NCBI GenBank assembly: GCA_028876065.1
Contig: JAGWTI010000014.1
Coordinates: 1 to 48,623 of the forward strand
DNA length: 48,623 bases
Direction: 5' to 3'
Source: Nitrospirota bacterium
GTDB lineage: Bacteria; Nitrospirota; Nitrospiria; Nitrospirales; Nitrospiraceae
Position 1 is the stretch's first letter. Each line of letters starts with the position of its first letter. Positions 40,590 through 48,500 of this stretch are shown in pieces. The notes beneath the pieces are model-generated. The model searched no databases. It was not told the origin of the DNA and saw only the letters and a list, made by a program, of their open reading frames with translations. Made by a program: the position numbers and the translations under genes.

Positions 40590-40723
40590 GGCAACCTCCG
40601 GGCGGTGTGGGGCGACGACGTGCGCATGAGCGGCAAGTCGGACGGAAGATAGGCGAGCGCCGGGGGATTGTCAAACCGGCCCGATCCGGCGTCGTCGTAC
40701 TGGGCAGGGGTGGGGGAAGGGAC

Positions 40724-41095
40724 ATGAGCAACCGGAGCTTGGGCTTCATCGTGCTGCTGTTGGGCATCACGGTCGGACTGGTGTTGACCAACCCGACGAT
40801 GCAGGACTATGTCGCCTTCCTGGAGCAACGGCTGGTTCTGAAACTGGACCAGAACCGGCAAGGCAAGGCTGGTCTCGTGGGGGCTCTGTTGGCCGCCCAG
40901 GGGCGGGAGGTGATCGAGGCCGTGATTCGGCCGAACACGATGCGTCGCAGCTATGGACTGTACAGCCTCTTTGAAACCAGTCTCCTGGGCGAGCAGGTCC
41001 TCGTGCTCGGGGTCGGAGGCTTTTTCATCCCCTTGCGGGGCCTCGAGCAAGTCACAAAAAAAGTTGAGGGGCTCGGCCTGCCGCCGGCCCGATAG
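40724..41095 (+). CDS. DUF4359-like membrane-anchored protein
   Basis: The 123-residue product has one N-terminal hydrophobic helix (LGFIVLLLGITVGLVLTNP, about 6-24) followed by MQDYVAFLEQRL. This TNP-X-DY-X-F pattern resembles DUF4359 proteins, whose function is unknown. The rest is an amphipathic domain with a hydrophobic LGEQVLVLGVGGFFIPL near residue 95. The ATG at 40724 follows GGGGGAAGGGAC. It is the last gene before the long nrdJ regulatory region. Confidence 0.65.
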   Translation: MSNRSLGFIVLLLGITVGLVLTNPTMQDYVAFLEQRLVLKLDQNRQGKAGLVGALLAAQGREVIEAVIRPNTMRRSYGLYSLFETSLLGEQVLVLGVGGFFIPLRGLEQVTKKVEGLGLPPAR

Positions 41096-41221
41096 GGCTT
41101 CGCAAGGGTGCTTTTGGGCCATAAGATCTGTTGATAAACGAGTCGAAATCCACGCGTTGACCGCATAGGAAGCGGCGATTTTTCTATCCACAGCCTTTCC
41201 CTCAAAATCAACAGGTCCCCA

Positions 41222-41263
41222 CAACATTTAGTATTGACAAACGCTTGGCTTCGCCATATATTG
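41222..41263 (+). promoter_or_regulatory. nrdJ promoter with two candidate NrdR boxes
   Basis: TTGACA (41234-41239) and TATATT (41257-41262) are 17 bases apart. CAACATTTAG (41222-41231) and CCATATATTG (41254-41263) match the NrdR-box core CWATATATWG at 8/10 and 9/10. Their centres are 32 bp apart, about three helical turns, the known arrangement of paired NrdR boxes. The second box covers the -10 element, so NrdR bound there would block RNA polymerase when dATP is high. Confidence 0.65.
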
Positions 41264-41268
41264 CGGTC

Positions 41269-41387
41269 CGTCCGGTTTTTTGAGGGGGCACTGCATGTTG
41301 AATGAGGGCCTCAGATGACGCGATCTGAACCTCCCAGACTCCCCGATCGGCCGGACGAACAGACAAGAGCAGGGGTTTCCTGAACAG
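41269..41387 (+). ncRNA. candidate structured RNA leader of nrdJ
   Basis: From the predicted transcription start, CGTCCGG (41269-41275) pairs with CCGGACG (41351-41357) to enclose a multi-stem region. Within it GAGG/CCTC (41304-41307 with 41330-41333) supports a TCAGAT/ATCTGA hairpin (41311-41316 with 41323-41328, loop GACGCG). A terminator follows at once. I see no cobalamin-riboswitch B12 box. It could be a leader regulator or a small RNA of about 160 bases. Confidence 0.45.
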
Positions 41388-41427
41388 AAGCGAACACGGC
41401 GAACTCCCGGTGTTCGCTTTTCTTTTT
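41388..41427 (+). terminator. intrinsic terminator inside the nrdJ leader
   Basis: AAGCGAACAC (41388-41397) pairs perfectly with GTGTTCGCTT (41410-41419), followed by TTCTTTTT. It lies between the promoter and the nrdJ start, 62 bases before the GTG, so full-length transcripts must read through it. Confidence 0.8.
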
Positions 41428-41488
41428 GGCGCCCAGGGCAGGCAGAACCTGAGTTTGGGTCCCATAACCGGTTAGGGGAGGAGATATT

Positions 41489-44400
41489 GTGAGGATTGAG
41501 CGACGATTTACGCAACGGGGGCAGAGTCCTTACCGGGACATGCCGTTCGCGAAGCGTTCCTCAGAGATCAAGAATCCCGATGGCTCTACGGTCTTTAAGC
41601 TCGACAACATCGACGTGCCCGAGCAATGGACCCAGCTCGCCGTCGATATCCTGGCGCAGAAATATTTCCGGAAGGCCGGAGTGCCCCAGGTCGGTCCGGA
41701 CGGGAAGCCTGTGTTCAACCAGGACGGCAAGCCGGTGCTGGGAGGCGAGCGGGACGCGCGGCAGGTCTTCCACCGGCTGGCCGGCTGCTGGACTCATTGG
41801 GGGAAGAGCCACGGCTATTTCACCAAGGAGGAAGACGCCTCCGCCTTCTACGACGAGATGTGCTACATGCTGGCGCGCCAAATGGCGGCGCCCAACTCGC
41901 CCCAGTGGTTCAACACGGGCCTGCACTATGCCTACGGCCTCTCCGGCCCGTCCCAGGGGCACTATTATGTCGATCCGAAGAGCAAGGAGATGGTCAAGGC
42001 CACGAACGCCTTCGAACATCCTCAGCCGCATGCCTGCTTCATCCAGGCAGTAGATGACGACCTGGTCAACGAGGGCGGGATCATGGACCTTTGGACCAGG
42101 GAGGCGCGGCTGTTCAAGTACGGGTCCGGCACCGGCACGAACTTCTCCAAGCTGCGCGGGGACAACGAGCCCCTCTCGGGCGGCGGGCGCTCCTCCGGCC
42201 TGATGTCCTTCCTCCGGATCGGCGACCGGGCGGCCGGCGCCATCAAGTCCGGCGGGACCACGAGGCGCGCGGCCAAGATGGTCTGCCTGGATTTGGACCA
42301 TCCGGACATCGAAGAGTTCATCGACTGGAAGGTGGTCGAAGAGCAGAAGGTGGCGGCCATGGTCACCGGCTCCAAGATCTGCGCGCAGCGGCTGAACGAG
42401 ATACTCCGCGCCTGCCATGTGCAGGACGGGAACGGGGCCACGCGGGTCGAGATCGATCCGGCGAAGAACGAGACCCTTAAACGGGCCATCAAGGCGGCCC
42501 GCCAGTCGGCCGTGTCGGAGGCGTACATCCAACGGATGTTCTCCTACGCCCAGGAAGGGTTCACCCACTTCGTCTTCCACGAGTACGACACGAACTGGGA
42601 CGGCAAGGCCTATCAGACCGTATCGGGGCAGAATTCCAACAACAGCGTGCGCATTCCCAACGGGTTCTTCGAAGCCCTGGAACAGGACGGGGATTGGGCG
42701 CTCAGACGCCGCACGGACGGCAAGGTCACCAAAACCGTCAAGGCTCGTGAGCTCTGGGACAAGATCGCCTGGGCCGCCTGGATCTGCGCCGATCCCGGCA
42801 CGCAGTACGACACCACGATCAACGAGTGGCACACCTGCCCGGAGGACGGGCCCATCAACGCGTCCAATCCCTGTGTGACCGGCGAGACGCTGGTGGCGAC
42901 CGTCGACGGTTGGCGGAGGATCGATGCGCTGGTCGGCAAGACCGTCCGGATTATCGGCGCGGATGGCCAACCGCACGTGGTCACGAAGGTGTTCCCGACC
43001 GGCCGCAAGCCGATCTTCACGTTGACCACCCGAGCCGGCTATCGTGTGCGCATCACCGGCGACCACCGGGTGCTCACGGTTGGCCGCGGCGATGTGGCGG
43101 TGCGGGACCTCACAGTGGAAGACCGGTTGTTCCTGCAGGGGCCGGGGTTTGGCCGGCGGACGATGCCGTCGGATTTGGCTCTGGGGGTCGGAGTGGCCAT
43201 CGGCGACGGCTGTCTCACGCGGTCGATGATTCGAGGACAGGAAGAAACCATCATCATCTTGTCCATGCATGCCGACGAAGCGACGGTCTTGGCCTCGATC
43301 GCTGAGGCGGTCAATGTCCAAAAGGCGGCCCTCAAAGCGGTCGGATCGATCGGGCGCAACGACGGGGTGAACGTGACGCGGAGCGCCACGGGCGCCAGGC
43401 TTTCGTTCGGTTCCCGTCCTGTGGTGGATCTGTTTCGCGAGCTGGCCATCCTGGACGAAGGCTCGGAGCGGAAGCGGTTCACGCCGGCCGTTTACGAGTT
43501 GGACAAGCAAGCTCTTGCGGCGGTCTTGCGCGGTCTGTTCACCGCGGACGGCACGGTCGCGCATTATGGGGAGAAATCCCAATACGTGGCCCTGGATTCC
43601 ACGTCGCTGGAACTGTTGCGACAGGTGCAACTGCTGCTCTTGTCCTTCGGGATCAAGGCCAAGCTCTATGAAAACCGCCGGGGTGGAAAGACCCAGGCGG
43701 TTCTGCCGGATGGGAAGGGCGGGATGCGATCCTATCCGGTTCGGGAGATGCACTCGCTCCGGATCAGTCGCTCTTCACGGTTCCTCTTCGAGCGGGAAAT
43801 CGGGTTCCATCCGGGCAGCCGCAAGGCCGAGGCTCTTGCGGAACTGAATGCCTCGGTCGGCACGTACCAGGACGAGCTGACGGATGACGTGGCTTCGATT
43901 GAGCCGGAGGGGGAAGCCGATGTGTTCGATTTGACCGAAGAAGCGACCCATCATTTCGTGGCCTCCGGGCTCGTCGTCCACAATTGTTCGGAGTACATGT
44001 TCCTGGACGACACGGCCTGCAATCTGGCCTCGCTGAACCTGGGCGAGTTCTACGAAACGGACGGCCAGTTCCGGCTGGACGATTTCCGGCATGCGGTGCG
44101 GCTCTGGACCATCGCGCTGGAAATCAGCGTGCTCATGGCCTCGTTCCCGAGCAAGGCCATCGCCGAAAAGAGCTTCATCTACCGCACGCTGGGGCTGGGG
44201 TACGCCAATCTGGGCACGGTGCTGATGCGGCAGGGGATTCCCTACGATTCGCCCAAGGCTCTGGCCATTTGCGGGGCGCTCACGGCGATCCTGACCGGCG
44301 AGTCCTATGCGGCTTCGGCGGAAATGGCGGCCGAGCTGGGCCCCTTCGACGGGTATGCGCGGAACCGCGAGCCCATGCTCCGGGTGATCCGCAATCATCG

Positions 44401-46126
44401 GCGGGCCGCCTACCATGCGGTGCCGGAAGAATACGAGGGGCTGACGATCAAGCCGCAGGGCATTCAGCCGGAACATTGCCCGCCGGACCTGTTGATCGGA
44501 GCGCGGCGGGCCTGGGACAAGGCGCTGGAACTGGGCACGGCCTATGGGTTCCGCAACGCGCAGGTCACGTGCATTGCCCCGACCGGTACGATCGGCCTGG
44601 TCATGGACTGCGATACGACCGGGATCGAGCCGGACTTCGCCCTGGTCAAATTCAAGAAGCTGGCCGGCGGCGGCTACTTCAAGATCATCAACCAGAGCCT
44701 CCCGCCGGCGCTGGCCACGCTCGGGTACAACGAGGCGCAGATCCAGGAGATCGTCACCTTTTGCACCGGCCGCCGGACCTTGAAGGGGGCGCCGTTCATC
44801 AACCACGAGACCCTGCAGGCCAAAGGCTTCGACGGGGCGGCGCTGGACCGGCTGGAAGCGGGCCTGGGCCAAGCCTTCGAAATCCAGTTCGCGTTCAACA
44901 AGTGGACCTTGGGCGAGGAATTTTGCCGCGAGAAGCTGGGCCTGACCGACGCGCAGCTCAACGAGCCGAATTTCAACATGCTCAAGGCGCTGGGGTTCGC
45001 CCAGGAGCAGATCGTGGTGGCCAACGACTATTGTTGCGGCACGATGACGATCGAGGGGGCGCCGCACCTGAAGGCGGAGCATCTCCCGGTCTTCGATTGC
45101 GCCAATCGCTGCGGCCGTACGGGCCAGCGGTTCATCGCCGTGGACGCCCACATTCGGATGATGGCGGCGGCGCAGCCCTTCATCAGCGGGGCGATCAGCA
45201 AGACCATCAATATGCCGGCGGACGCGACGGTGGAAGACGTGAAAGCCTCCTACCTGTTGTCCTGGCACTCGATGGTCAAGGCGGTGGCCTTGTACCGGGA
45301 CGGCTCCAAGCTCAGCCAGCCGCTCAATGCCGCGTCGGACTCGGGCGAATTGGCCGAGGCCGTGGCCGGCGGGGACGTGTTGCAGGCGGCGGAAAAGATC
45401 ACCGAACGGGTGCTCGTCCGGTACCTGGCCAGGCGGAGGCGGATGCCGGAGCGGCGGAAGGGGTATACGCAGAAGGCCATCGTGGGCGGCCATAAGATCT
45501 ATCTGCGGACCGGCGAGTACAGCGACGGGACCGTGGGCGAGATCTTCCTGGACATGCACAAGGAAGGGGCGGCCTTCCGCAGCCTCATGAACTGCTTCGC
45601 GATCGCCATCTCCCTGGGGCTCCAGCACGGGGTGCCGCTGGAAGAGTTCGTCGAGGCGTTCGTGTTCACCCGGTTCGAGCCCAACGGGCCGGTCAAGCTC
45701 AACGACCGGATCAAGATGTCCACGTCGATCATCGACTACATCTTCCGCGAGCTGGCCATCACCTATCTGGGCCGTCACGATCTGGCGCAAGTGGTGCCGG
45801 AAGACTTGCGCATGGACTCGGTCAAGAAGGACGCCCAGGACCCGGCCACGATGGAAGGGGAGGAGGCGGACCCGCAAGCCCTGGCCTCGTCGTCGATCAG
45901 CACGGACATGTTCCCCGCCAGGCGCGAGAACGGCAACGGCGGCAACGGGGCCCTGGCGCACAAGCTGGAGTTGAAGCGCGAGACCCTGACCTATACGACC
46001 GTCGAACTGGCCCGCTTGAAAGGTTACGAAGGGGATCCCTGTCAGAACTGCAAAGAGTTCACGCTGGTGCGCAACGGCACATGCCTCAAGTGCATGAACT
46101 GCGGCGCCACGAGCGGTTGCTCCTGA
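41489..46126 (+). CDS. nrdJ: adenosylcobalamin-dependent ribonucleotide reductase (class II) with intein
   Basis: NrdJ reduces ribonucleotides to deoxyribonucleotides with a B12-generated thiyl radical, independent of oxygen. The 1545-residue precursor contains a 371-residue intein, leaving a 1174-residue enzyme. Extein landmarks: [14 protein letters not shown] (about 135), [27 protein letters not shown], the catalytic triad N-P-C-S-E formed on splicing (Asn460, Cys833, Glu835 in the precursor), [20 protein letters not shown], and a C-terminal Cys tail ([20 protein letters not shown]). AGGGGAGGAG precedes the GTG start. It is followed by a small PD-(D/E)XK-like protein. Confidence 0.97.
42872..43984 (+). 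other. intein with LAGLIDADG homing endonuclease inside NrdJ
   Basis: Codons 462-832 form an in-frame intein. Block A is [17 protein letters not shown], with Cys1 as splice nucleophile. Block B is [11 protein letters not shown]. The C-terminal blocks are [14 protein letters not shown], ending in the required His-Asn, and the +1 residue is Cys. Two dodecapeptide motifs, [12 protein letters not shown] and LRGLFTADG, mark a DOD-type homing endonuclease. All splicing residues appear intact. It interrupts the NPCSEY motif of the reductase. Confidence 0.95.
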
Positions 46127-46798: not shown

Positions 46799-46902
46799 TG
46801 TGCTTTCGATAATTTCAAGACCGGTTGAAGCCTTGGAGCTTGAACGGATTCTACGTTAGGATCAACGTGCCCAAAGTAAGATTGGCTATACCGCCAGCAA
46901 CG

Positions 46903-47892
46903 ATGACTCGTTGGCCAAACACCGATTTTTCCCCCTACGTTCCTCGCCAAGTAGGAAAGCTGGAAAACCATCAAACCGATCTTCCGCGGATTGCAAAAGA
47001 TCCAAAGCTGACCGCATTGATCGAATCTGCTCTCCGCAATATTCCTACGGCGCACGATCTGTACCTCCACGATGCTCGCAACCTTTCTCTGATCGAGGAT
47101 GGGAGTGCTCATTTGGTCTTGACCTCGCCTCCATACTGGACGCTCAAGGAGTATCGTCGTTCGAAAGGCCAAATGGGATTTATTGCTGATTATGATGAAT
47201 TTATAGAAGAGTTGGATAAAGTGTGGCGGCATTGCTTCCGTATTCTTGTGCCAGGAGGGCGATTGATTTGCGTCGTTGGCGATGTGTGCCTTTCGCGACG
47301 CAAAAACGAAGGGCGGCATACAGTGGTGCCGCTTCATTCTTCGATTCAGGAGCATTGCCGAGCGATAGGGTATGACAATTTAGCGCCAATTATCTGGCAC
47401 AAAATAGCGAATGCTTCGTATGAAGTGGAAAATGGTTCCAGTTTTATGGGAAAGCCCTATGAACCCAATGCTGTTATCAAAAACGATATCGAGTTCATAC
47501 TGATGGAACGAAAACCAGGCGGCTATAGGAGCCCGTCTGTTGCTACTCGTATATTAAGTGTAATTTCGACAGAAAATCACAAAAAATGGTTTCAGCAGAT
47601 ATGGTCGGGTGTCACTGGTGCCTCCACCAAGGCGCATCCGGCGCCGTTCCCATTAGAACTCGCAGAGCGGCTTATTCGTATGTTTAGTTTTGTTGGCGAT
47701 ACGGTTCTGGATCCTTTCATGGGGACGGGTACGACAAGCCTTGCGGCATCTCGGTGGGGGAGGAATAGTATTGGCGTGGAGGTAGATCCACATTATTTCG
47801 ATCTTGCGAGCCACCGTCTTGCAGCGGCTACGGGAGACCTCTTTGCTAACGTGAATGTCAACGTCATACGACCGGAGGGCCGTACTGCATGA
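46903..47892 (+). CDS. type II DNA methyltransferase (N4-cytosine/N6-adenine, SPPY class)
   Basis: The 329-residue enzyme has the catalytic motif LTSPPYW (73-79) ahead of the SAM-binding motif VLDPFMGTGTTSLAASRWGR (within about 270-292), the order of beta-class amino-methyltransferases. TSPPY is most often seen in N4-cytosine enzymes. PGGRLICVVGD is the next conserved strand. It presumably protects the target of the adjoining endonuclease. AT-rich third positions differ sharply from the neighbours, which suggests horizontal transfer. The start is uncertain: an ATG at 46903 is chosen, and the frame is open to a TTG at 46825. It overlaps the endonuclease start (ATGA). Confidence 0.9.
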   Translation: MTRWPNTDFSPYVPRQVGKLENHQTDLPRIAKDPKLTALIESALRNIPTAHDLYLHDARNLSLIEDGSAHLVLTSPPYWTLKEYRRSKGQMGFIADYDEFIEELDKVWRHCFRILVPGGRLICVVGDVCLSRRKNEGRHTVVPLHSSIQEHCRAIGYDNLAPIIWHKIANASYEVENGSSFMGKPYEPNAVIKNDIEFILMERKPGGYRSPSVATRILSVISTENHKKWFQQIWSGVTGASTKAHPAPFPLELAERLIRMFSFVGDTVLDPFMGTGTTSLAASRWGRNSIGVEVDPHYFDLASHRLAAATGDLFANVNVNVIRPEGRTA

Positions 47893-48500
47893 ACAATCTT
47901 CGTGGAATGGTTGGAGCGGCTGTTCGTCAGTTTTGGAGGATACGCCAGAGGCAAGAAAGAAGGCAGGGTAAAGCCACTGGAAAGCGAGACCAGGGAAGCC
48001 GAAGCGCTGTAACCGGTGGCGCTCAAATGGATGGGTTTGTCCAGCTTGTTAGTGAATTGCTGGTGGAAAGCGGAATCCCCGACGACACGATTTATCGAAA
48101 ACGGAATGTTGAAATTCCAGGATTTTTCCGTCCGACAAAAGAATGGGATCTTCTCGTTGTTATTGATGGCCACCTTCTGGCGTCGATCGAATTCAAATCT
48201 CAGGTCGGCCCCTCCTTCGGAAACAATTACAATAACCGAACCGAGGAGGCCTTGGGCAGCGCTACAGATGTGTGGGCCGCTTACCGTGAAGGAGCTTTTC
48301 GGGATTCTCCCAAGCCGTGGCTTGGCTACCTCATGCTATTAGAAGAGGCGCCTCGCTCGACCAGTCCTGTGGCTGTTACTGAACCGCACTTTGCGGTGTT
48401 CGAAGAGTTTCGCGGGGCATCCTATGCCAAACGCTATGAGCTATTCTGTCTGAAGCTTGCTCGTGAACGGCTCTACGATGCATCTTGTTTTCTAATTTAG
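47889..48500 (+). CDS. XhoI/PaeR7I-like type II restriction endonuclease, C-terminally truncated
   Basis: The 203-residue protein strongly resembles PaeR7I/XhoI enzymes, which as I recall cut CTCGAG. Shared blocks include GFFRPTKEWDLLVV (about 75-88), SIEFKSQVGPSFGNNYNNRT with the Asp and Glu-X-Lys of the PD-(D/E)XK site (about 96-115), WAAYREGAF, and FRGASYAKRYELFCLKL. The known enzymes are about 245 residues; the alignment is collinear from the N-terminus, so about 40 C-terminal residues are missing. The stop TAG sits at the edge of an IS200-like element. Activity is therefore doubtful. Codon use is AT-richer than the genome. Confidence 0.88.
   Translation: MNNLRGMVGAAVRQFWRIRQRQERRQGKATGKRDQGSRSAVTGGAQMDGFVQLVSELLVESGIPDDTIYRKRNVEIPGFFRPTKEWDLLVVIDGHLLASIEFKSQVGPSFGNNYNNRTEEALGSATDVWAAYREGAFRDSPKPWLGYLMLLEEAPRSTSPVAVTEPHFAVFEEFRGASYAKRYELFCLKLARERLYDASCFLI

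Follow-up and report, generated by a model that had tools for sequence, protein, structure and literature searches.

The nrdJ locus

The window, by which we mean the whole 48,623-nucleotide stretch of DNA analyzed here, carries a class II ribonucleotide reductase (RNR) gene, nrdJ, behind a predicted promoter, a pair of predicted NrdR boxes, two predicted DnaA boxes, and a leader with a small open reading frame (ORF) and a terminator-like hairpin. From 5' to 3', the features are as follows.

41129-41137, minus strand: predicted DnaA box TTATCAACA, 8/9 to consensus, 93 bp upstream of NrdR box 1
41184-41192, plus strand: predicted DnaA box CTATCCACA, 8/9 to consensus, 38 bp upstream of NrdR box 1
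41222-41231, plus strand: NrdR box 1 core CAACATTTAG, 8/10 to CWATATATWG, kept at the same place in relatives (16-bp box, 41219-41234)
41234-41239, plus strand: -35 element TTGACA from the promoter scan; the same hexamer lies beside box 1 in most relatives
41254-41263, plus strand: NrdR box 2 core CCATATATTG, over the -10 element, 9/10 to CWATATATWG, kept in relatives (16-bp box, 41251-41266)
41257-41262, plus strand: -10 element TATATT from the promoter scan
41304-41333, plus strand: hairpin GAGG..CAGAT..ATCTG..CCTC in the leader, spanning the small ORF's start codon (leader fold and alignment)
41315-41383, plus strand: small leader ORF of 22 codons, MTRSEPPRLPDRPDEQTRAGVS, with the same length and frame in all four genomes of the genus
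41387-41430, plus strand: intrinsic-terminator-like hairpin with a T tract, 68 nt from stem end to nrdJ, with compensatory stem changes
41489-46126, plus strand: nrdJ, class II (B12-dependent) RNR of 1545 amino acids with an intein; NF005736, 1923 bits (cut-off 1737); Pfam domains including LAGLIDADG_3 and Intein_splicing

A sequence-only reading of the window had described two NrdR cores, matching at 8/10 and 9/10 with 32 bp between centers, one of them over the -10 box of a promoter with a perfect -35 and 17-bp spacing. Both descriptions hold. The centers fall at 41226.5 and 41258.5, and the promoter, TTGACA-17-TATATT (11/12), is the sole promoter-like site that the scan found in 40700-41700. 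The outer C and G are present in both cores. The parts of PMC12051234 used here report that NrdR binding is best with box centers separated by whole helical turns, usually three but also four, and that spacers of 14-17 or 24-27 bp are tolerated in binding experiments. The 16-bp spacer between the boxes in the window fits this rule.

Could the pair simply be two AT-rich palindromes that lie together by chance? Single cores at two mismatches are no less frequent in the window than chance predicts (10 versus 7.9 expected), which is what such an explanation would lean on, and the 8/10 score of box 1 is a point against the explanation we prefer. However, when up to three mismatches are allowed, the window has one pair at 32 bp, and 100 shuffles gave none. 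Across the 3.41-Mb genome the same paired pattern is found at two places and a reversed control pattern at none. Together with the conservation of the pair across the order and the whole-turn changes in its spacing described below, this makes a chance pair scarcely credible.

A second NrdR-like pair (17/20, 32 bp apart) lies in the same genome at L089:3151-3192 (contig 14:7650-7691), between genes that by eye resemble type VI secretion tssJ and tssK. It is also present in two of the three other genomes of the genus, and in the comparison with G052 all differences fall in the spacer. In another genome of the genus, at L201:2195-2236 (contig 19), the nrdJ-type promoter and its box pair recur with no RNR gene behind them; they precede a small protein with several CxxC-like pairs and then an HNH-like gene.

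nrdR and RNR genes in this genome

The genome was checked for nrdR, and it has one match, on contig 54 (TIGR00244, 202.6 bits versus a cut-off of 124.65). It encodes a full protein with both the Zn-ribbon and the ATP-cone domain. The gene is not adjacent to nrdJ and sits after a glyA-like gene on another contig. A PF02867 search found two RNR large-subunit genes, nrdJ itself and, on contig 121, another one of class II, and searches of the genome for class III (PF13597) and the class I small subunit (PF00268) gave no match. As only class II genes were found among the RNR families searched, the cell would need B12 to make dNTPs and would rely mostly on the nrdJ locus. The suggested search for paired boxes before other nrd genes came out negative for the second class II gene. 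At the threshold applied, no box pair precedes that gene or nrdR, which leaves nrdJ as the only RNR target observed.

Both class II genes (41489-46126 and L003:988-3927) carry an intein with a LAGLIDADG domain, at what by eye is a similar NPC site. Downstream of nrdJ, at 46825-48500, a DNA methyltransferase gene is followed by an XhoI-type restriction endonuclease gene, forming a restriction-modification pair.

The NrdR box pair across Nitrospirales

We searched 118 genomes, found an nrdJ match in 104, and compiled the upstream DNA for 101; G142, G157, and G167 were left out because their upstream DNA was short or not compiled, and second nrdJ matches in G070, G092, G120, and G146 were left out, as was L191. 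The genomes are mostly metagenome-assembled and related to each other, so the counts given here and below are not independent. In 87 of the 101 Nitrospirales genomes, versus 0 of 303 shuffles, nrdJ is preceded by a box pair of 16/20 or better, spaced 31-32 bp, and the pair score is 14 or 15 in the other 14. For g14 and g20, two genera with wider spacing, the highest-scoring pair anchored on the promoter (18/20) has its boxes 41-42 bp apart, with box 2 still on the -10 element. In g5, g16, and one g22 genome, the pair is shifted 10 bp upstream as a unit. The predicted boxes vary among relatives, in spacing and in position, by whole helical turns. The order gives a natural spacing series, of three and four turns, for the NrdR phase rule.

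The regulator and the boxes do not always go together. Of 50 genomes of relatives that were tested (drawn from 80 loci), 45 gave an nrdR match; the five with L008, L035, L061, L066, and L086 gave none, and four of these five show a box pair of at least 15/20. Conversely, L060 (a Nitrospirales genome), L068, L069, and L075 belong to nrdR-positive genomes and yet have no good pair in the 500 bp before nrdJ. L035 is a chromosome titled Candidatus Parvibacillus calidus that bears a Nitrospira-type nrdJ with the promoter at the record edge, and is perhaps a misassembled join.

The sequence-only reading had predicted repression of nrdJ by NrdR and named the lack of an nrdR gene, or loss of the boxes in close relatives, as grounds for rejecting it. 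Neither was observed: the boxes are kept, and with nrdR present in the genome they support predicted NrdR control of nrdJ. NrdR controls class II genes in other bacteria (PMC4409342, PMC9110341, each drawn on in part), and in Pseudomonas aeruginosa it represses nrdJ in air (PMC4409342, in part). We regard NrdR control of nrdJ here as a safe prediction, ordinary in kind. The boxes are the best-supported element of the region, and the simplest view of the locus would stop there, with NrdR alone setting nrdJ transcription and with the DnaA-like sites, leader ORF, and terminator all incidental. However, this view must account for what flanks the boxes on either side.

Conserved DnaA boxes upstream

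Using the 9-mer consensus TTATCCACA with one mismatch allowed, we found a DnaA box at most 98 bp upstream of NrdR box 1 in 82 of the 101 genomes, versus 1.9 expected from dinucleotide shuffles. Specificity was assessed in several ways. In a control stretch 200-300 bp upstream the 9-mer was present in 1 of 100 genomes, and 60 anagrams of the 9-mer were found in a mean of 2.4 genomes and a maximum of 13. The 9-mer occurs in at least half of the genomes in 26 of the 31 genera, and 5 of 27 loci outside Nitrospirota have a match, in a wider stretch. Within 150 bp, the count rises to 98 of 101 (4.0 expected), and to 100 of 101 once two g10 genomes are anchored on the correct pair, leaving G147 as the sole miss.

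The positions of the boxes are also ordered. Plus-strand boxes cluster at -17/18, -26/28, and -36/38 and minus-strand boxes at -82/83, -91/93, and -100/104, in both cases about 10 bases apart, although Rayleigh values for this phasing overstate its significance because the genomes are related. The conservation shows predicted DnaA sites upstream of the NrdR boxes, and phased sites in 100 of 101 genomes are hard to reconcile with an operator that answers to NrdR alone. A DnaA-like sequence, TTGTCCACA, also lies upstream of the L089-type pair in all three genomes that have it.

A leader ORF that ends at a terminator

In the window, about 220 nt separate the promoter from nrdJ. Such a long leader is found in 18 genomes, which represent the window's genus and eleven other genera of its family. 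A terminator score of -18 or below was obtained for 12 of the 18 long leaders, versus 8.6% of shuffled leaders; it was reached by 0 of 48 short-leader relatives and by 3 of 35 genomes from the order's other families. Five alignment pairs in which both sides have changed with pairing kept were seen among nine aligned leaders, all of them in the terminator stem. The hairpin around the start codon follows one pattern in four genera, and this pattern occurs once each in 8 of 175 Nitrospiraceae genomes, always within the nrdJ leader.

The placement of the small ORF is also regular. We marked the terminator stems of 14 leaders by hand ahead of counting (that of G059 is weak and was chosen by eye; G063, G070, G079, and G083, the long leaders outside the 14, have no clear terminator) and then counted ORFs that start with ATG, have at least 18 codons, and stop no more than 8 nt from the stem. 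The stop codon abuts the terminator, lying 0-5 nt before the hairpin, in 13 of the 14 leaders, which cover all nine genera concerned. The number expected is 0.77 when the part before the stem is shuffled and 2.18 when its last 12 nt are kept. This abutment and the compensatory changes in the stem count, with the phased DnaA boxes, against the view that NrdR alone sets nrdJ transcription, which we consider quite improbable.

The peptide itself does not appear to be conserved. In the protein-level comparison, frame 0 scored 20.6 versus 19.9 and 16.9 in the other frames; codon-position differences within the genus (9, 20, and 20) show no third-position bias; and one g8 leader (G078) is frameshifted relative to G087. 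What is conserved in the leader, as judged from these alignments, is the arrangement of open frame, stop codon, and terminator.

Folding gave less. The whole leader is predicted to be only marginally more stable when folded than its shuffles (z = -1.5), and a search for antiterminator pairing or pairing that sequesters the Shine-Dalgarno sequence found none that was significant against shuffles in most leaders. As no alternative antiterminator structure was found, we do not class the leader as a trp-type attenuator. Two specific pairings were considered and rejected, in each case on duplex energies mostly no better than those of shuffles: a long-range helix between the 5' end of the leader and the middle of the small ORF (p = 0.01-0.04 in 3 of 14 leaders), and a pairing of CCTC with the nrdJ Shine-Dalgarno sequence that RNAalifold had suggested. 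A cobalamin or other riboswitch was likewise rejected, as the leader has no Rfam match over the gathering score; the best match at E values up to 5 was 13.6 bits versus 50, which is chance level.

How should such a leader be read? The main rival to a leader attenuator is an ordinary short gene whose terminator leaks. The NrdR promoter would then make a small RNA or a protein of 22-31 amino acids that ends at its own terminator, and nrdJ would be reached by constant read-through, with the terminator unregulated. The stop codon and terminator are indeed placed as at an ordinary gene end, and the failure to find an antiterminator suits this explanation. However, the lack of amino acid conservation speaks against a protein with a function of its own, no Rfam family was matched, and, as the scan picked up no further promoter-like site ahead of nrdJ, the main RNR would have to rely on leakage. 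We consider a separate short gene unlikely, though it deserves more weight than an NrdR operator with incidental neighbors. A leader ORF and terminator behind an NrdR promoter probably make up an attenuator, and the arrangement would suit a device in which translating up to the stop codon, and not the peptide made, decides whether the terminator forms.

Proposed control of nrdJ

Taking these elements together, we put at about 70% the probability that the nrdJ control region joins three inputs: NrdR, DnaA, and a leader attenuator. The degree of confidence differs among the three. The predicted NrdR step is strongly supported, by the sequence and by established NrdR biochemistry. In the second, DnaA would bind one or two upstream boxes that are helically phased with the NrdR boxes and so tie nrdJ transcription to the replication state; we infer the direction of this effect. 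For the third, we see the architecture in the aligned leaders and infer the mechanism. In the long-leader genera, transcripts would cross an ORF of 22-31 codons whose stop adjoins the intrinsic terminator, and part of transcription would end there, ahead of nrdJ. A ribosome located at or close to the leader stop codon would mask the terminator's 5' arm and so allow transcription to go on.

It is tempting to go further and propose that a group of Nitrospiraceae genera sets its main RNR, a class II enzyme, by DnaA (replication state), by NrdR (dATP), and by an attenuator that depends on translation, with the ribosome that completes the 22-31 codon ORF physically blocking the abutting terminator. 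This fuller model is tentative, and we would give it somewhat less than even odds. If it is true, RNR synthesis would also sense the translation state, and an attenuator on an RNR gene would add a third, RNA-level control.

The open-access literature searched did not describe control of Nitrospira nrdJ by NrdR, DnaA, or attenuation, nor an RNR leader ORF or attenuator of this sort. Two things at nrdJ go beyond the sequence-only reading: DnaA boxes that are conserved and, in one part of the family, a leader ORF with its terminator, on a class II RNR promoter in an order that includes nitrite oxidizers.

Comparison with known systems

In trp-type leader-peptide attenuators, a promoter, a short ORF, and an intrinsic terminator come before the structural gene, and the same elements precede nrdJ in the same order. 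However, the nrdJ leader showed no regulatory codon run, antiterminator, or conserved peptide, and here the stop codon itself abuts the terminator. RNA elements in the 5' leaders of RNR genes have a precedent in Propionibacterium acnes, where cobalamin riboswitches lie before nrdAB and nrdDG (PMC3848588, in part); the nrdJ leader differs in having no Rfam match at the gathering score.

Among NrdR-controlled promoters, the closest parallel is nrdRJ of Streptomyces coelicolor, where the two boxes at a class II RNR promoter are separated by about three helical turns. The nrdRJ promoter was used in cryo-electron microscopy work on S. coelicolor NrdR, whose binding requires dATP plus ATP or ADP, as the relevant part of PMC9110341 describes. 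Unlike in S. coelicolor, nrdR lies apart from nrdJ here, and DnaA boxes and a leader with a terminator are added.

In Escherichia coli, DnaA has a double binding box ahead of nrdA and a further site before nrdD (PMC11317965, in part), and the class Ia nrdAB promoter is bound by both DnaA and NrdR (PMC11317965 and PMC12176259, in part). The nrdJ promoter is alike in having sites for both proteins, though here these are predicted. The boxes resemble the E. coli nrdA type in role only: the E. coli double box is closely spaced, and no double box of that type is present in the window, where the two boxes lie 55 bp apart in opposite orientation before a gene for a class II enzyme. Joint control by DnaA and NrdR, known from the E. 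coli class Ia operon, appears here, in predicted form, on another enzyme class and across a whole order.
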